From Haemophilus haemolyticus (lineage in GTDB: Bacteria; Pseudomonadota; Gammaproteobacteria; Enterobacterales; Pasteurellaceae), in contig NZ_CP031240.1 in the NCBI RefSeq assembly GCF_003351405.1, positions 1,178,001-1,242,000 of the forward strand: a DNA stretch of 64,000 nt. Reading direction: 5' to 3'. The notes under the pieces are model-generated. The model ran no database searches. It was given only the letters and a program-made list of their open reading frames with translations, and was not told the DNA's origin. A program made the position numbers and the translations under genes. This document shows positions 14,432-55,207 of the stretch, one piece after another. Each line of letters starts with the position of its first letter. The stretch's first letter is position 1.

Positions 14432-14507
14432 TGGTGGGTCGTGAAGGATTCGAACCTTCGACCAACGGATTAAAAGTCCGCTGCTCTACCGACTGAGCTA
14501 ACGACCC
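14432..14507 (-). tRNA. tRNA-Lys (anticodon TTT)
   Basis: The 76-nt cloverleaf runs from GGGTCGT to ACGACCC, discriminator A and encoded CCA. D-arm AGCTCAGTCGGTAGAGC, anticodon loop with TTT, and T-arm GTTCGAATC are all present. It is the last of four tRNAs read on the minus strand. Confidence 0.95.
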
Positions 14508-14526
14508 ACTGATATCATTTTTTAAA

Positions 14527-14613
14527 TGGTGCCCGAAGCCAGACTTGAACTGGCACGCCTCGAAAGGCGAGGGATTTTAAATCCCTTGTGTCTACCGATT
14601 CCACCACTCGGGC
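14527..14613 (-). tRNA. tRNA-Leu (anticodon TAA)
   Basis: This is an 87-nt class II tRNA with a long variable arm, acceptor GCCCGAG paired with CTCGGGC-like 3' strand (one wobble), an encoded CCA and a TTTAAAA anticodon loop giving TAA. It lies 19 bp upstream of tRNA-Lys in the same transcript. Confidence 0.95.
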
Positions 14614-14640
14614 ATATAGACAACTAACATTTGCGTATTA

Positions 14641-14714
14641 TGGAGGCGTGTCCCGGAGTCGAACCGAGCTACATGGATTTGCAATCCAGTGCATAACCGC
14701 TTTGCTAACACGCC
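14641..14714 (-). tRNA. tRNA-Cys (anticodon GCA)
   Basis: The 74-nt tRNA has acceptor GGCGTGT, discriminator T as usual for tRNA-Cys, an encoded CCA and anticodon GCA. Confidence 0.95.
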
Positions 14715-14720
14715 ACGAAT

Positions 14721-14796
<76 letters not shown>

Positions 14797-14844: not shown

Positions 14845-15042
14845 TTACAGATTTAAAAAAATTATCTAACCGTTTAAAAAAAGTTCATTTTGTTCAAATA
14901 AATCACAGAAAATGATGGAAAAATGGAATTTTATGTAATTTTCTAATTTCTACTTTTATCACTTTTTCCTTTGTGCCAAAATGCTAAACGTTTTTTAGCA
15001 CATAAAGTGCGGTTGATTTTTTCATTATTTTTAGAGGATGTT

Positions 15043-16152
15043 ATGACACAACAATATGCTATCGATACTTTATTAGCTCAAGCAGGCAATCGCAGTGATG
15101 AGCATACGGGCGCGGTTTCTACACCAATTTTTCTTTCTACGGCTTATGGTCATTATGGTATCGGTGAAAGTACGGGATTTGATTACACGCGTACCAAAAA
15201 CCCAACTCGTACAGTATTAGAAGAAACGATAGCTAAATTAGAGAATGGAGATCGTGGCTTTGCGTTTTCTTCTGGTATGGCTGCCATTCAAGTTTTGATG
15301 ACGCTTTTCACCGCACCAGATGAATGGATCGTTTCTAGCGATGTGTATGGTGGTACTTATCGACTATTAGATTTTTCTTATAAAAATAACAATAGTGTAA
15401 AACCTGTTTATGTCAATACAGCATCTGCTTATGAAATTGAGGCGGCAATTAACCCAAATACAAAAGCGATTTTTATTGAAACCCCATCAAATCCTTTAAT
15501 GGAAGAATGTGATGTGGTTGAAATTGCAAAACTTGCGAAAAAATATAATTTGATGTTGATCGTGGATAATACGTTTCTAACGCCTGTGCTTTCTCGTCCG
15601 TTAGATTTAGGTGCGGATGTGGTAATTCACAGCGGGACTAAATATATTGCTGGTCATAATGATGCACTTGTTGGTTTAATCGTTGCAAAAGGGCAAGAAC
15701 TTTGTGATCGCATTGCTTATATTCAAAATGGTGCAGGTGCGGTGCTTTCACCGTTTGATTCTTGGCTAACTATTCGTGGTATGAAAACTCTTTCTTTGCG
15801 TATGAAACGCCATCAAGAAAATGCACAAGCTATTGCGGAATTTTTAAAAGCTCAACCACAAGTGGAATCAGTGCTTTATCCAAATAAAGGTGGGATGTTG
15901 TCTTTCCGTTTGCAAGATGAAGCTTGGGTTAATACATTCTTAAAATCCATCAAATTGATTACTTTTGCAGAAAGTCTAGGCGGCACAGAAAGTTTTATTA
16001 CTTATCCTGCCACTCAAACTCATATGGATATTCCAGAATCTGAGCGTGTAGCTCGTGGGATTACTAATACCTTGCTGCGTTTTTCAGTCGGTATTGAAGA
16101 TGTAGAAGATATTAAAGCGGACTTATTACAGGCTTTTGCAAACTTAAAATAA
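15043..16152 (+). CDS. metB: Cystathionine gamma-synthase
   Basis: This PLP enzyme joins O-succinylhomoserine and cysteine to give cystathionine in methionine synthesis. The start at 15043 (MTQQYAIDTLLAQAG) has an AGAGGA site 8 bp upstream. An upstream in-frame ATG at 14971 would add 24 residues that lack family similarity. The resulting 369 residues match MetB. The PLP lysine is in SGTKYIAGHND, with the YTRTKNPTR and TPSNPLMEECD motifs before it. Family members include cystathionine beta-lyases and other lyases of the same fold; MetB is chosen from the overall match to H. influenzae HI0086. A 7-bp hairpin (14982-14988/14994-15000) and an uptake signal lie in the leader. Confidence 0.85.
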   Translation: MTQQYAIDTLLAQAGNRSDEHTGAVSTPIFLSTAYGHYGIGESTGFDYTRTKNPTRTVLEETIAKLENGDRGFAFSSGMAAIQVLMTLFTAPDEWIVSSDVYGGTYRLLDFSYKNNNSVKPVYVNTASAYEIEAAINPNTKAIFIETPSNPLMEECDVVEIAKLAKKYNLMLIVDNTFLTPVLSRPLDLGADVVIHSGTKYIAGHNDALVGLIVAKGQELCDRIAYIQNGAGAVLSPFDSWLTIRGMKTLSLRMKRHQENAQAIAEFLKAQPQVESVLYPNKGGMLSFRLQDEAWVNTFLKSIKLITFAESLGGTESFITYPATQTHMDIPESERVARGITNTLLRFSVGIEDVEDIKADLLQAFANLK

Positions 16153-17279: not shown

Positions 17280-17603
17280 ATGAGCGAAGTATTACACATT
17301 AATGACGCAGATTTTGAAAGTGTTGTAGTTAATTCAGATATCCCCGTTTTATTAGACTTTTGGGCACCTTGGTGTGGTCCTTGCAAAATGATTGCACCAG
17401 TGTTAGATGAACTTGCGCCTGAATTTGCTGGTAAAGTTAAAATCGTGAAAATGAATGTCGATGACAACCAAGCAACACCAGCACAATTTGGTGTTCGTAG
17501 TATCCCAACATTATTATTGATTAAAAATGGTCAAGTTGTTGCAACTCAAGTTGGTGCATTACCAAAAACTCAATTGGCTAACTTCATTAACCAACATATT
17601 TAA
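17280..17603 (+). CDS. trxA: Thioredoxin
   Basis: Trx1 is a cytosolic disulfide reductase that serves ribonucleotide reductase, methionine sulfoxide reductase and PAPS reductase. The active site WCGPCK is at about residues 32-37, with the cis-Pro in RSIPTLLL and LDFWAPW before the active site. The length is 107 residues. An AAGGAAA site precedes the ATG. The gene has its own promoter and a strong terminator. It is next to metB and to the unusual sulfur-like operon on the opposite strand. Confidence 0.97.
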
Positions 17604-17644
17604 TCGTTGCTTAAAGCTATAAGTAAATTTAGAGCATTGATAAG

Positions 17645-17672
17645 ATTGCCCCTTAATGGGGCAATTTTTTTG
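17645..17672 (+). terminator. terminator of trxA
   Basis: ATTGCCCC (17645-17652) pairs with GGGGCAAT (17658-17665), 8 bp with a TTAAT loop, followed by at least seven Ts. Confidence 0.88.
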
Positions 17673-17703: not shown

Positions 17704-18168
17704 TCAAAGCACTTGCTCAAATTCTATATTTAAAGGAAAGGCTTTGGTTATCGTGTTGTAAATAAAACAACAGCGTAATGCGTTTTGCGTGAGTTGTGTG
17801 AAGATATCATCGGTTAAATCCGATGAGATAAAAATTTTAATTTTTCCGTCATTAATGACAGGCTGCTCACTATAGCCGCGAACGCCGAGTAAGGTTAAAG
17901 GATTGGTGAGGTTGAGCCAAATTTTTCCTTCCATTTCTACAATATCGGCTCGTTGTTGAGCAAAATGCGCTTTTACACTGCTCAAAATGCCCCCTAAAAT
18001 AGAAACAGCGAAATAATCCACCGCGCTTTTTTGTAATGATTGGTTATCGAAATTGACTTGTGAATAGAGCGAAATACTGTCATTCGGTGTGAATAATTTA
18101 ATTTCTTCTCCGCGTAATACGGCTCGATATTTAGCGGTAAAACATTCACTTTCAGGTACGTTATACAT
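17704..18168 (-). CDS. OsmC-like small protein, last gene of the sulfur-like operon
   Basis: This 154-residue protein has no signal peptide or membrane segment. The pattern of an N-terminal beta region, a helix SAVDYFAVSILGGILSSVKAHF (about residues 48-69), strands and a final helix ending TQNALRCCFIYNTITKA resembles the OsmC/Ohr fold. OsmC and Ohr are thiol-dependent peroxidases. The first conserved Cys would lie in the helix but is missing here (GGILSS), while a Cys pair remains in the second helix, so peroxidase chemistry is doubtful. Its ATG overlaps the end of the MetE-like gene by 8 bp, a sign of translational coupling. Fold assignment is tentative. Confidence 0.5.
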   Translation of the reverse strand: MYNVPESECFTAKYRAVLRGEEIKLFTPNDSISLYSQVNFDNQSLQKSAVDYFAVSILGGILSSVKAHFAQQRADIVEMEGKIWLNLTNPLTLLGVRGYSEQPVINDGKIKIFISSDLTDDIFTQLTQNALRCCFIYNTITKAFPLNIEFEQVL

Positions 18169-19330
18169 AACGTTCCCTCAATATTGATTTTGCTTCATTT
18201 AATACCTTAAGTTTGGCTTCAATAATGTCAAATCCATTTAAAGGGCGGTTAGAAAAAGTGGCAAATCCACAATCTGGATTTAGCCAAATTTGCTCTGGTG
18301 GAAGGTAATTTAAGGCTTTTTCTGCACGCTGAACAATCTGTTCTACGGTTTCTACTTCATCAGAACGAGGATTGATGACGCCTAAGCCTAAAATACATTT
18401 TTGTCTTAAGATTTCACTTTCTAATAACGAACTTAATTCTCCCGCTCTTGGCGTAGAAAATTCGAGCATTAAAATATCAGGTAATGCCGATTCAAATAAA
18501 TCTACTAATGATGTATAAGGCCCGCGCAGTAATACGCTTTCATCTTTGCTCCAGTTGCCTCGGCATACATGTAATGCGGTTTTGATATTTTTATTTCTTG
18601 CATACTCAAAGATTTGAGTAATTAAACTTTTCGCAAACTGTAGCTCTGCTGCAAAATCTTGTTTTTCGCTTAACGCCGCACACATAAATGAACGTGTTTG
18701 ATGATGGCTAAAAATAACTTCTGTCAAAACAGGCTCATCAAATTGAACTACGCTTACGCCTAGCTCACACAAATGATCAATTTCTTGCTTTAAGATAGCA
18801 ACAACATCTTTTGCCATTTCTTCTTTTGATGAATAATATTGCCCTGACACAGGCGAAAGCCACATGGAGCGAGCCATTAAGTAAGGCCCAGGCAAGGTTG
18901 CTTTAATTGGTTGCTTGGTTAGATTTTTCAGTAGCAACATTTCATCTGCTACTAAAGATTGTTTGTAGCTGATTTTTCCCACGCAAATAGCATTTTTTAT
19001 GGAAAGTGCGGGAACATCCAAGGTTTCTAGCATCGATTCAAAAACTTGCTTTTCTTTAATGTGATCGAGCATTTCACTCATGCTCATTAAGGTCGCGCCT
19101 TGAATTTTTTGTGCAATAAAAGAAAGGTAATTGTCGCGAAGTAATTCACCGCTAGTGATGATATCAATGCCAGTGCGTTGTTGAAGTGCGACAATTTGTT
19201 TCGTTTCTTGAACAACGATTTGCTCAAGCTCTGTAGTGGTTATTTTGCCGAGTGCGTGCTTTTTACGAGCCATCAAAAGTGCTTGGCTACGAGGCATTGA
19301 GCCTAAAAGGGAAGTTGTGAAAGGTTTCAT
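18161..19330 (-). CDS. MetE C-terminal-domain-like thiol methyltransferase
   Basis: This 389-residue TIM-barrel protein matches the catalytic half of cobalamin-independent methionine synthase but lacks the N-terminal half (MetE is about 750 residues). All four zinc ligand positions are visible: His254 and Cys256 in LHVCRGN, Glu290 in LMLEFSTP and Cys354 in NPDCGF. FDEP (197-200) is the barrel motif shared with MetE. The stand-alone form suggests homocysteine or another thiol as methyl acceptor, with a donor that need not be methyl-folate. Stand-alone MetE-core enzymes that make methionine without folate are known (the Mes families). A 53-bp gap with a hairpin separates it from the gene upstream; it overlaps the gene downstream by 8 bp. 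Substrate unknown. Confidence 0.7.
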   Translation of the reverse strand: MKPFTTSLLGSMPRSQALLMARKKHALGKITTTELEQIVVQETKQIVALQQRTGIDIITSGELLRDNYLSFIAQKIQGATLMSMSEMLDHIKEKQVFESMLETLDVPALSIKNAICVGKISYKQSLVADEMLLLKNLTKQPIKATLPGPYLMARSMWLSPVSGQYYSSKEEMAKDVVAILKQEIDHLCELGVSVVQFDEPVLTEVIFSHHQTRSFMCAALSEKQDFAAELQFAKSLITQIFEYARNKNIKTALHVCRGNWSKDESVLLRGPYTSLVDLFESALPDILMLEFSTPRAGELSSLLESEILRQKCILGLGVINPRSDEVETVEQIVQRAEKALNYLPPEQIWLNPDCGFATFSNRPLNGFDIIEAKLKVLNEAKSILRERYV

Positions 19331-19342
19331 AGAAAATCCACA

Positions 19343-19371
19343 ATGATGGGCGTTTATTACACGCCCATCAT
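19343..19371 (-). promoter_or_regulatory. perfect 11-bp hairpin inside the sulfur-like operon
   Basis: ATGATGGGCGT (19343-19353) and ACGCCCATCAT (19361-19371) form a perfect stem with a 7-nt loop in the 53-bp gap between the binding-protein-like gene and the MetE-like gene. There is no T-run. It could protect the upstream mRNA or adjust expression of the two downstream genes. Confidence 0.6.
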
Positions 19372-19383
19372 GACATATTGATA

Positions 19384-20190
19384 TTACAAGAATTTTAAAT
19401 ATTCATTGGCAGCTTGTAATTGAGCAAAACCTTTTGTTCTACCCGCAACCCAACGTTTTAATCCTTCCAAATCCATCATTTCTTTATGTTCTGGATTGTT
19501 GTAATCCATTTTGAACAAGGTTTCGGTGAATGCATTGAATTTGGTTTCATCTAATCCCACGCGTCCACTAAAAATACAATGGTCAAATGATGGTGTTTTT
19601 GCGAGTACTCGAACTGCTGCTGGATCGAGTGTGCCATCTTTTGTCCAACGTTCAAAGTTGAAATCTAACATCCATGTTGCCGCGACTTGGCGATCTTTTA
19701 ATGCATTAGCTGCATCTAATTCACCGCCTACATGATCGCCGTGCAAACCAACACCCACATCAAAGCGTTTTTCTACATAATCTTGACCAAACTCTAAGCC
19801 ATGTTGATGTAAAAACTCGATTGGAATTAACCGCGCTTGTGGAGAATCAATCGCACCAAAAGCAATAGTTTTATTTTTTAAATCTTCAATCGATTGGATA
19901 GTTGGGTCATTAACAACTAAATAGCTTTGACGATCTTGGTCGGTATCACGCATGGCACCATTTAAGGTTTTACCGCCACTACGTAAGTAACCATCTAGCC
20001 AAGCTAGAGGTGAGTTCCACGCCACATCAATTTCATTATTGAGTAACGCATCAACTTGTCCTTTGTAGTCTTTGAAATACACGGGTTCAATAGGGAAGCC
20101 TTCTTTTTCGAAAAAGTCTGCAATAATTCCCCAAATCACTGTCACTTGTGGGGCGTAGATTACCGCCCCAATTTTTAATTTCTCACTCAT
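19384..20190 (-). CDS. PhnD-like binding-protein fold without signal peptide
   Basis: The 268-residue protein looks like a type II periplasmic binding protein of the PhnD/phosphonate group: LKIGAVIYAPQVTVIWGII at the start, NNEIDVAWNSPLAWLDGYL (about 54-72), the hinge-side segment SIEDLKNKTIAFGAIDSPQAR and HGLEFGQDY. It starts MSEKLKIG with no hydrophobic leader. The upstream gene ends only 13 bp before the ATG, so no signal peptide can be added. No ABC permease or ATPase gene is nearby. It is therefore probably cytosolic and acts as an enzyme, ligand carrier or sensor. Cytosolic enzymes with this fold exist, for example in thiamine and menaquinone synthesis. Function unknown. Confidence 0.6.
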   Translation of the reverse strand: MSEKLKIGAVIYAPQVTVIWGIIADFFEKEGFPIEPVYFKDYKGQVDALLNNEIDVAWNSPLAWLDGYLRSGGKTLNGAMRDTDQDRQSYLVVNDPTIQSIEDLKNKTIAFGAIDSPQARLIPIEFLHQHGLEFGQDYVEKRFDVGVGLHGDHVGGELDAANALKDRQVAATWMLDFNFERWTKDGTLDPAAVRVLAKTPSFDHCIFSGRVGLDETKFNAFTETLFKMDYNNPEHKEMMDLEGLKRWVAGRTKGFAQLQAANEYLKFL

Positions 20191-20203
20191 TTTTCACCGC
20201 ACT

Positions 20204-21331
20204 TTATGGAATTTGTTGACCTGTAATGGCTTTACCTAACCAAATATTTAGCACATCGACACTTGGTGCCATCACTTGACTTGCTAATGCATCGCGTAAA
20301 TAGCGTTCCATTGGCCCCATTTTGTTATAGGCCTTACCACCGCCAATACGCATACCAATTTGTGCAAGGGTAATCGCATTTTCGCTCGCAAGAATTCGGG
20401 CAGCTAATAATTTAGCTAATGCATCAGCATCACCTTCTGTGGCTGCACGAGCCGCATCTTGCGTAGCACATACAGCAGCGTTTGTATTTGCATAGATTTT
20501 AGCTAAGTGAATTTGCACGGTTTCGATTTCAGCTAATGCAGTGCCAGATGTGTATTTACGGTGTGTTGAATGTTTAATTGCGTCAGTAAGCACGGCTTTA
20601 CAGACGCCACTATAGACAGCTGCCAAACCGCAAATAAAGGCTGGTGCAATGCCACCAAATACTTGTTCTGCGCCTGTGCCAACTTCACCAATACGCCAGC
20701 TACGATCTAATGGCATATCGGTCATTCGCATAAAGCAAGAGACATTGCTACGCATACCTAAGCCATTCCAGCTATCGGCTTCAAAAGTTAAGCCTTGAGT
20801 ACCAAGTGGAAGCACCCAGTTATCAATAGTTTCACCATTTTCCGAAGGCAAAAGCGCTAAATAATAAGATGCATAATTGCCCGATGTCACCATGGATTTT
20901 AAGCCATTGAATACTGCATGTTCAGCATTAAATTGTGCGGTTGCATCGGTAATATAGAAGTGAGTACCTGTGCCTAATTCACTATAGGCGAGTGCGGCAA
21001 AGGTTTGATTTTGAACAATGTCAGAAAAGATTTTTTGTTTGAGTTGATTGCTGCCGAATAGATTTAAACAATTCACTGCAACATTACTCATCATGTAACA
21101 GAGACCAGCAGAGGCTGAACTTTCTGCTAACGCCATACAGACTTCAGCATGTTCTTTCAGGGTTAATCCCATTCCGCCGTATTCTTTCGGAATTAAAAGT
21201 GAAAACCAACCGGCTTTACCTAATTCCTTAAATGCCTGAACAGGAAATTCTTTTTTTTGATCGAGTTCGTCGGCGTAAGGCTCAATAAACTGTTCCGCTA
21301 ACTTTCTCACCTGAGTATAGATTTGCGACAT
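20204..21331 (-). CDS. Acyl-CoA-dehydrogenase-fold flavoprotein, possible monooxygenase
   Basis: This 375-residue protein has the full acyl-CoA dehydrogenase layout: helical N-terminus with LIPKEYGGMGLTLKEH (about 46-61), a beta domain with AYSELGTGTHF in place of the usual TEP-xGSD FAD motif, and a helical C-terminus. The EGT-type motif that supplies the catalytic Glu in dehydrogenases is absent; the equivalent region reads MAPSVDVLNIWLGKA. Fold relatives without that base include flavin-dependent sulfur monooxygenases (DszC, SfnB). It is the first gene of the four-gene minus-strand operon, 13 bp before the binding-protein-like gene, and has an AAGGAT ribosome site. Oxidation of an organosulfur compound is my inference. 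Confidence 0.7.
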   Translation of the reverse strand: MSQIYTQVRKLAEQFIEPYADELDQKKEFPVQAFKELGKAGWFSLLIPKEYGGMGLTLKEHAEVCMALAESSASAGLCYMMSNVAVNCLNLFGSNQLKQKIFSDIVQNQTFAALAYSELGTGTHFYITDATAQFNAEHAVFNGLKSMVTSGNYASYYLALLPSENGETIDNWVLPLGTQGLTFEADSWNGLGMRSNVSCFMRMTDMPLDRSWRIGEVGTGAEQVFGGIAPAFICGLAAVYSGVCKAVLTDAIKHSTHRKYTSGTALAEIETVQIHLAKIYANTNAAVCATQDAARAATEGDADALAKLLAARILASENAITLAQIGMRIGGGKAYNKMGPMERYLRDALASQVMAPSVDVLNIWLGKAITGQQIP

Positions 21332-21442: not shown

Positions 21443-22231
21443 TCAAGAAAAAATCTGGCAAGCATTTTCCCATGTGACTTTTTTAATCAATTCAGCCGGT
21501 TCATTTCTTAAGGTGCAAAGGGCTTTGAAACTTTCCACAATACGTTCTGGTCGATTAGGTTGGCCTTGAAAACCAAATACAGGCATATCTGGACTGTCTG
21601 TTTCCAACACTAAGGCGTCAAGTGGTAGCTTTGCAATCGCTTGACGAGTTTTATTGGCGCGTTCATAAGTGATAGTGCCGCCAACCCCGATTTTATAACC
21701 TAAATCAACAAAGCGTTTTGCTTGATCGTAGCTTCCTGAAAAACCGTGTACCACGCCAAGTTTGGATAATGGAATACGTTTTAAAAAAGTAAAAATTTGA
21801 TCATGGGTTTTTCGACTGTGAATATTGACGGGTAAATTAAACTGTTTTGCCAAATAAAGTTGGCTTTCAAAAAAATGACATTGTTTTGCCCAAAGTTCAT
21901 CGGTGAGCAAATCGGGAATCGCGCGTTCCAAACCAATTTCTGCCACCACCGTGCAATTTGCATCACGATTTTTTAAGGTTTGTTCTAACAGAATCAAATC
22001 ATTTTCGGCGTGTTCTTGAATATAAAGAGGATGGAGCCCAAGCCCATAGCACAAATTATCAGGAAAAAGTGCGGTCATATTTTTGATTGTTTTAAAATCA
22101 GCTTCTTTCACCGCCACAATCAGTATTTTTTGCACATCGGCTTGCTTAGCATTATCAACAAGCTGTGACAAAGGCTCCCCAGTAAATTGTTGGAGATAAT
22201 CGAGATGCGTGTGAGTGTCGAAGAAAGGCAT
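21443..22231 (-). CDS. TatD-family metal-dependent hydrolase (YjjV-like)
   Basis: This amidohydrolase-superfamily protein probably acts as a Mg/Mn-dependent nuclease. The metal motif is DTHTHLDYL near the N-terminus, followed by GLHPLY, VAEIGLERA (catalytic Glu), NIHSRK and LETDSPDM near the C-terminus. YjjV-type proteins are close to this length (262 residues). I place the start at ATG 22231 because AAAGG at 22241-22245 is well spaced for it; an ATG at 22237 is only 3 bp from that site. It precedes the sulfur-like operon by 111 bp in the same direction and follows ppiB. Confidence 0.87.
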   Translation of the reverse strand: MPFFDTHTHLDYLQQFTGEPLSQLVDNAKQADVQKILIVAVKEADFKTIKNMTALFPDNLCYGLGLHPLYIQEHAENDLILLEQTLKNRDANCTVVAEIGLERAIPDLLTDELWAKQCHFFESQLYLAKQFNLPVNIHSRKTHDQIFTFLKRIPLSKLGVVHGFSGSYDQAKRFVDLGYKIGVGGTITYERANKTRQAIAKLPLDALVLETDSPDMPVFGFQGQPNRPERIVESFKALCTLRNEPAELIKKVTWENACQIFS

Positions 22232-22251
22232 GAGCATTTTCCTTTAGGTTG

Positions 22252-55117: not shown

Positions 55118-55207
55118 TGGCGGAGGAATAGGGATTCGAACCCTAGGAGGGCGTAAACCCTCGCCGGTTTTCAAGACCGGTGCCTTCAACCACTCGACCA
55201 TTCCTCC
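55118..55207 (-). tRNA. tRNA-Ser (anticodon TGA)
   Basis: This 90-nt class II tRNA has acceptor GGAGGAA, discriminator G, an encoded CCA, a long variable arm and an anticodon loop CTTGAAA that gives TGA. Confidence 0.95.

Follow-up and report, generated by a model that had tools for sequence, protein, structure and literature searches.

A conserved four-gene cassette in Haemophilus haemolyticus that is probably linked to selenium use

The locus and the conservation of its four genes

A stretch of 64,000 nucleotides of Haemophilus haemolyticus (contig NZ_CP031240.1 of assembly GCF_003351405.1, positions 1,178,001 to 1,242,000; the window) carries four genes on its reverse strand, here called the cassette. 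The first gene, at 20204..21331 (-), is a 375-residue open reading frame (ORF) encoding a flavoprotein of the acyl-CoA dehydrogenase (ACAD) fold. The second (19384..20190, -; 268 residues) encodes a protein with the substrate-binding-protein fold, which is Rv1680-like and of the PhnD/PtxB superfamily. The third (18161..19330, -; 389 residues) encodes a core MetE without the folate domain, and the fourth (17704..18168, -; 154 residues), which overlaps the MetE gene by 8 bp, an OsmC-like protein. Pfam matches the flavoprotein with Acyl-CoA_dh_N, _1 and _M (79.1, 49.8 and 34.3 bits) and the other three proteins with Phosphonate-bd (100.3 bits), Meth_synt_2 (110.9 bits) and OsmC (29 bits, cut-off 27.5). 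The ORF coordinates agree with the original prediction, made from this DNA alone, of four same-strand genes separated by 13, 53 and -8 bp. The cassette is very likely linked to selenium, and the element that it handles is probably selenium rather than sulfur.

Scanning genome contigs with the MetE-core protein of the window alone yielded 52 loci, and 33 of these have all four genes in the same order and on the same strand. One further cassette locus (L033) is broken by a contig end, and L031 (Planctomycetota) has the four families in a different order. The full cassette is absent from 17 loci, where the MetE is 32-43% identical (47% in the fragment L048) and some contigs are short. Since the identical gene order recurs in 33 loci that were fetched by the MetE core alone, the four genes are a conserved unit, beyond chance, as the original prediction anticipated when it named co-occurrence of the families in other genomes as a check. 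The 33 cassettes are spread over Haemophilus, Bacillota, Campylobacter and one Synergistaceae metagenome-assembled genome (MAG). By record title the carriers include Haemophilus, Parvimonas, Peptostreptococcus, Anaerococcus, Aedoeadaptatus, Peptoniphilus, Ezakiella, Fenollaria, Alloiococcus, Falseniella, Loigolactobacillus, Neobacillus, Salipaludibacillus, Paenibacillus, Campylobacter MAGs and the Synergistaceae MAG, bacteria of host-associated and soil habitats. In a literature search, titles and the opening parts of abstracts contained no description of this four-gene cassette, and it may have been mentioned elsewhere.

Co-occurrence with selenium use

SelD, scored with TIGR00476 above its cut-off, is present in every one of 35 cassette genomes (that of the window, those of the 33 complete loci and that of the contig-cut L033), as against 2 of 14 control genomes. 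In matched clade samples, the same genome draws were searched for the binding protein of the window (E<=1e-20) and for SelD; we assigned the order names of these samples from the genomes used as centres. The binding protein and SelD are found in 6 and 71 of 295 Lactobacillales, in 9 and 127 of 246 Paenibacillales, in 5 and 155 of 279 genomes from the order of the Neobacillus genome G129, and in 6 and 114 of 121 Pasteurellaceae, a sample in which some Haemophilus genomes of the 52-locus scan recur under a second handle. Pooled, the four clades comprise 941 genomes, 467 of them with SelD; all 26 carriers of the binding protein are SelD-positive, and it was detected at this threshold in 0 of the 474 SelD-negative genomes. 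Eight weak Pasteurellaceae matches (E 6e-6 to 2e-11, 23-28% identity), all in SelD-positive genomes, were dropped from the counts.

Of the 26 carriers, 19 reach at least 52% identity (here called strong), and each of these has the four genes nearby, with the usual order in 18 and a divergent ACAD gene in one (G348); the other seven (33-40% identity) have paralogues outside the four-gene cassette. The product of the per-clade hypergeometric probabilities, which ignore relatedness within clades, is 1.3e-8 for all 26 carriers and 7.2e-6 when only the 19 strong ones are counted. In three clades, of whose 20 carriers 14 were new to the analysis, it is 9.6e-6 for these 14 and 0.005 for the seven strong ones among them. 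Occurrence only or almost only in SelD-bearing genomes, which marks a selenium-utilisation accessory gene and has been applied in this way to YedE, YedF and LysR_Se (PMC5322559), is therefore what the cassette displays.

In Alloiococcus otitis (L022) the cassette lies among selenium genes, in the order tRNA-Sec (Rfam RF01852, on the opposite strand; Sec, selenocysteine), the C-terminal half of yedF, the cassette, two extra ACADs, selD, selB and selA. The profile scores are 106.3 bits for the YedF C-terminal half (TIGR03527, cut-off 110), 338 for SelD, 364 for SelB and 593 for SelA. The two additional ACAD paralogues that separate the cassette from selD occupy L022:10821-13212.

The cassette is not tied to a single use of selenium. 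SelA is present in 31 of the 35 cassette genomes and the selenouridine synthase MnmH in 12; three of the four genomes lacking SelA, all Paenibacillus, carry MnmH beside SelD on a single contig, and one or other of these selenium sinks is found in 34 of the 35. The Synergistaceae MAG (G142, locus L025) has SelD and the cassette, and neither SelA nor MnmH was found in it, owing to an incomplete assembly or another use of selenium. As the cassette occurs with either SelA or MnmH, the common factor is SelD and not one selenium use, which fits a system that feeds SelD, and on balance we favor the cassette as a supplier of selenium. It could instead be a new sink, converting selenophosphate or selenide into a methylated selenium metabolite, or recycling seleno-amino acids with the MetE core acting on selenohomocysteine or selenomethionine. 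The strict association with SelD suits a consumer as well as a supplier, G142 would then have its missing sink, and a MesD crystal contains selenomethionine (PMC7857596). However, the presence of another sink in 34 of 35 genomes is expected of a supplier and not of an independent consumer, and a new sink is improbable.

Predicted properties of the four proteins

The flavoprotein has A355 at the position of the MCAD-type Glu (YEGT motif) and F232 at that of the IVD-type Glu in an alignment to solved ACADs, and both residues are invariant in 29 sequences. Because these two positions, which we take to be those of the catalytic base in the MCAD and IVD types, are both without an acid, the Glu base of a catalytic acyl-CoA dehydrogenase is missing and ordinary alpha,beta-dehydrogenation is unlikely. 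The best named NCBIfam family is the Rv1679 (FadE16) acyl-CoA dehydrogenase, at 210 bits against a cut-off of 600. Weak matches include sulfinopropionyl-CoA desulfinase models, SfnB (86.9 bits, cut-off 430.9) and DszC (49.1 bits, cut-off 850). Like SfnB and DszC the protein has the ACAD fold, but it scores far below their cut-offs. The cassette also occurs in Parvimonas, Anaerococcus, Peptoniphilus and Fenollaria, which are obligate anaerobes. An O2-dependent step of the DszC/SfnB type, as originally proposed, is doubtful on both counts. DszB, too, has the binding-protein fold.

The binding protein appears to be cytosolic, as had been predicted: visual inspection of two alignments, of 30 and of 12 sequences, shows no signal-peptide-like start, with ORF starts uncurated and no predictor applied, and the signal peptide or lipobox of the periplasmic PhnD/PtxB proteins is likewise not seen by eye. 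Its profile match to the structure 5lq5 has 67.3 bits, and it scores 190 bits against the NCBIfam model for Rv1680 substrate-binding-like proteins (cut-off 400) and 85.3 bits against a 'putative selenate ABC transporter' model (cut-off 250). Two triplets, D203-H204-C205 and G151-D152-H153, show no variation in 30 sequences, and the H204-C205 pair persists throughout a broader alignment of 12 sequences, eight of which are non-cassette paralogues. By our own mapping of structure numbering to alignment columns, which rests on profile alignments, C205 takes the place of the PtxB/PhnD capping tyrosine and H204 that of the residue before it. Y42 matches the ligand tyrosine Y55/Y46 and S116-P117-Q118 the STS oxyanion motif, while the pocket histidine aligns to a region with gaps close to H150/H153. 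In the binding proteins of known structure the capping tyrosine (Y208/Y206) packs against the R1 side of the ligand (PMC5700983). The cassette protein thus resembles PtxB and PhnD, which bind phosphite and phosphonates, in fold family, Y42 and the pocket histidine, and differs from them in its apparently cytosolic location, in reading S-P-Q for STS and in having the invariant Cys205 at the position of the capping tyrosine. Judged by these residues, the pocket is probably of the oxyanion type with a gained reactive cysteine, and the protein an enzyme or covalent carrier.

The MetE core is 389 residues long and does not have the two-part structure of full-length MetE, in which an N-terminal folate half and a catalytic half make up about 750 residues; PF08267 matches only a 65-residue stretch at 24 bits, below its cut-off of 27. 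Among 22 aligned sequences S11, E62, D198, H254, E290 and C354 are invariant and C256 is at least 90% conserved. The zinc ligands are H254, C256, E290 and C354, and the homocysteine residues S11, E62 and D198, so that the H-C-E-C and S-E-D sets of core methionine synthases (MesA-D type) are both present. These are the zinc and homocysteine residues given for the MetE and Mes families (PMC7857596). The regions of the Ser, Glu, Asp, zinc-binding Glu and C-terminal Cys were aligned to MetE structures, while the HxC pair was placed by its motif, outside the alignments. This conservation agrees with the assignment as a MetE core in the original prediction, and as the zinc and homocysteine residues are kept and the folate domain is absent, the protein should bind homocysteine and need a non-folate methyl donor.

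These features raise the possibility of a fifth kind of folate-independent methionine synthase, one whose flavoprotein partner makes the methyl donor from central metabolism, as has been proposed for MesD/MesX, with no part for selenium. The cassette resembles that system in its MetE core without a folate domain, in the conserved zinc and homocysteine residues and in the flavin-family partner; MesD requires a partner protein and flavin is predicted for MesX (PMC7857596). The likeness to the MesD structure 3rpd is low (67.6 bits), and DUF1852 (PF08908) is absent from the four window proteins, the only proteins of the neighborhood scanned for it. Such a synthase would leave the SelD association and the Alloiococcus neighborhood unexplained, and the source genome already has a separate longer MetE frame of 765 residues (G000:C1:1783xxx). 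MesD is O2-dependent and confined to aerobes (PMC7857596), whereas the cassette is not limited to them and occurs in the anaerobic genera named above. An explanation that dispenses with selenium in this way is quite unlikely.

Among 24 sequences of the OsmC-like protein, no cysteine is conserved. Ohr/OsmC peroxidases carry a conserved pair of reactive cysteines, and since these are absent the protein is not such a peroxidase; the original prediction had noted that OsmC/Ohr proteins handle thiols and peroxides.

The wider family and the case for sulfur

Nine clusters with paralogues of the binding protein were examined, and eight of them (L137, two in L138, L142, L143, L144, L147 and L150; not L145) have a homologue of the ACAD at a distance of a few kb. 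ACAD and binding protein are a unit outside the cassette as well. The genomes of L137 and L138 (Lactobacillales G230 and G362) are both SelD-positive. The Rv1679 and Rv1680 proteins of Mycobacterium tuberculosis have the same fold pair and are the best-scoring named families, but the cassette flavoprotein and binding protein are far below the curated cut-offs (600 and 400); a literature search returned no paper naming both Rv1679 and Rv1680.

Among distant relatives of the MetE core, those in L034 and L038 have an N-terminal TusA-like domain, L055 has a DsrE gene and a TusA-OsmC fusion beside the distant MetE relative, and a gene of the DsrE cluster is also present in L032 and L038. TusA and DsrE domains are those found in the selenium protein YedF.

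Neighboring genes were clustered across 40 loci in search of a conserved fifth gene. No flavin reductase, a neighbor that the original prediction had suggested looking for, was recognized among them. A cluster read as ABC ATPases lies in the flanks of nine loci, 0.4-7.8 kb from the cassette. A transporter as fifth gene was rejected, since the types differ between loci and none recurs as part of the unit. This lack of a recurring transporter fits a volatile or internal methyl-selenide, without proving it.

Several observations weigh against the reading as a selenium salvage cassette. Besides the neglect of relatedness in the probabilities given above, SelD is near-universal in Pasteurellaceae (114/121, p 0.69), which for this reason contribute nothing to the statistic. 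Three cassette-free genomes of the same genus (G068, G106 and G115) are SelD-positive, so the cassette is dispensable for selenium use and would be an accessory source. In flanks of up to 9 kb searched for SelA, SelB, SelD and YedF, such genes are near only one of the 34 fetched cassette loci, that of Alloiococcus, and not in several lineages. Single cassettes have transporters of other kinds at about 1-6 kb, namely an amino-acid-type ABC transporter and an NhaC-type antiporter (L015), an Opp-type transporter (L011) and a Mem_trans carrier (L019), with another substrate-binding protein in L009. The ACAD/binding-protein paralogues accompany a cysteine synthase and a sulfonate-type ABC transporter in L137, and sulfonate-type and MetNIQ-type transporters and an OsmC in L138, which makes sulfur roles likely in the wider family; TusA domains and DsrE neighbors accompany the distant MetE relatives. 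Finally, NCBIfam names both the flavoprotein and the binding-protein families after M. tuberculosis genes. To our knowledge M. tuberculosis lacks SelD, which argues against selenium for the family as a whole.

One rival reading is organosulfur scavenging, in which the flavoprotein and the binding fold would release reduced sulfur or a methyl-thiol, the MetE core would make methionine, and SelD would co-occur through a shared lifestyle. The SsuA/Tau-type and MetNIQ-type transporters and the cysteine synthase beside the paralogue pairs, the weak matches of the ACAD to SfnB, DszC and sulfinopropionyl-CoA desulfinase models, and the TusA/DsrE partners would all be in place. Against it stand the 26 of 26 carriers that are SelD-positive in matched clades, including Lactobacillales with SelD in only 71 of 295 genomes, and the Sec genes that flank the Alloiococcus cassette, and no sulfur transporter recurs beside the four-gene cassettes. 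Scavenging of organosulfur is therefore unlikely. The sulfur- or thiol-linked scavenging operon of the original prediction holds as one conserved unit with chalcogen-type chemistry, and gives way as a general sulfur scavenger to SelD in 35 of 35 genomes and the sel genes of Alloiococcus. The wider ACAD/binding-protein/MetE family seems to have a broad chalcogen chemistry, with the selenium link specific to the four-gene form.

Surroundings, regulation and mobility

The cassette lies downstream of tatD (21443..22237, -) and is convergent with trxA (17280..17603, +), which adjoins the end of the OsmC gene; a terminator-like hairpin at 17642..17668, scored on the + strand, separates the two. With metB at 14971..16152 (+), the ORF coordinates reproduce the predicted position opposite to and beside trxA and near metB. 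Around the cassette, metB, ldhA-like, trxA, tatD, ppiB and cysS have 94-99% DNA identity to H. haemolyticus and H. quentini loci (we assigned the names trxA, metB, tatD, ldhA-like, ppiB and cysS from the sequences). A four-tRNA cluster lies upstream of metB (14435-14796, -), and the window has one more tRNA at 55121-55207 (-).

Within the 53 bp that separate the MetE gene from that of the binding protein stands a terminator-like hairpin of 11 bp with a U-rich tail (19343..19371, -). Seventeen of the 33 cassettes have a gap of at least 45 nucleotides here, and 14 of these contain a stretch of at most 60 nucleotides that folds at -19 kcal/mol or lower, in unrelated sequences; the count has no shuffle control, and the five Haemophilus hairpins are near-identical. 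This recurrence of strong, often terminator-like hairpins between the second and third genes suggests uneven expression of the two halves, in which output of the first two proteins may exceed that of the other two. When 21 cassette loci were compared with Rfam at gathering scores for a riboswitch or T-box, 0 of 10 matches fell inside a cassette leader; the upstream sequences of these 21 loci share no common leader by eye, and inspection by eye upstream of the operon found no evident MetJ-type boxes. A LysR-type regulator gene (L016:5966-6880) lies 52 bp upstream of the Paenibacillus tarimensis cassette, an arrangement seen once.

One H. parainfluenzae strain has the cassette at another site, between part of an MnmA gene and nadN on one side and BCCT transporters and tatAB on the other, yet its first three cassette genes share 96.5-97.2% identity with those of the window. 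Flanking genes common to this locus and H. seminalis are only 78-94% identical. Because the cassette genes are near-identical at a different site while the shared flanks are not, we read this as a recent movement of the cassette between Haemophilus species. Base composition is uninformative on lateral transfer (GC content 0.376-0.424, against 0.382 for the window). Towards its 3' end the OsmC gene is a recombination mosaic that is highly diverged between Haemophilus strains (L004 and L008), with 84-86% identity in two strains and 94-96% in three others; the remainder of the cassette is about 96-97% identical.

A proposed route for selenium salvage

The cassette has about an even chance of being a selenium salvage or acquisition system with methyl transfer to homocysteine. 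It would act upstream of SelD. The substrate may be a methylated or organic selenium compound (methylselenol, dimethylselenide, methylseleninate or similar), either external or derived from methylation of selenide by S-adenosylmethionine (SAM). The cytosolic binding-protein fold would hold the selenium compound next to the invariant His-Cys and act on it jointly with the flavoprotein. Homocysteine could then receive the methyl group through the zinc MetE core, which would yield methionine and free selenide for use by SelD. The OsmC-like protein, which has no redox cysteines, may serve as a small carrier or subunit. Direct methyl transfer from the processed selenium compound is proposed because there is a zinc MetE core and no corrinoid protein among the four. 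We infer the order of the steps, the exact substrate and the role of the OsmC-like protein. A more specific form of the proposal, a corrinoid-free, folate-free and O2-independent core methionine synthase working on organic selenium, with the binding fold now a cysteine enzyme for a selenium oxyanion or methylseleninate, is tentative and somewhat doubtful.

The closest functional parallels are the type 1 mlp gene clusters (MGCs) and SdmABC (PMC10418091; PMC11097638), in which zinc methyltransferases have been proposed to demethylate selenium compounds in selenium-using genomes, the methyl group possibly enters methionine, and Sec genes co-occur strongly. SdmABC of Methanococcus has been linked to selenium use from dimethylselenide (PMC11097638). 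Type 1 MGCs have been proposed to salvage methyl-selenides, including those from SAM methylation of selenide; 87% of MGC species encode the Sec machinery, and the salvage may yield methionine (PMC10418091). Those systems use corrinoid proteins and UroD-superfamily methyltransferases and occur in anaerobes, whereas the cassette has a MetE core, an ACAD, a binding fold and an OsmC-like protein; the corrinoid and UroD families are absent from the four cassette proteins, to which the search was confined. The cassette would be a counterpart of these systems that needs neither corrinoid nor folate. According to a bioinformatics review, a transport system with high affinity for selenium had yet to be identified (PMC9312934).

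The cassette appears to be a hitherto undescribed route by which selenium is released from its methylated compounds and the methyl group is retained in methionine. The systems for demethylation of methyl-selenides described in the papers cited above use corrinoids. If the proposed role is correct, a mobile B12-free cassette would explain how organic selenium feeds the selenoproteins of the carrier bacteria, and its MetE core would be a further kind of core methionine synthase tied to a methyl donor.

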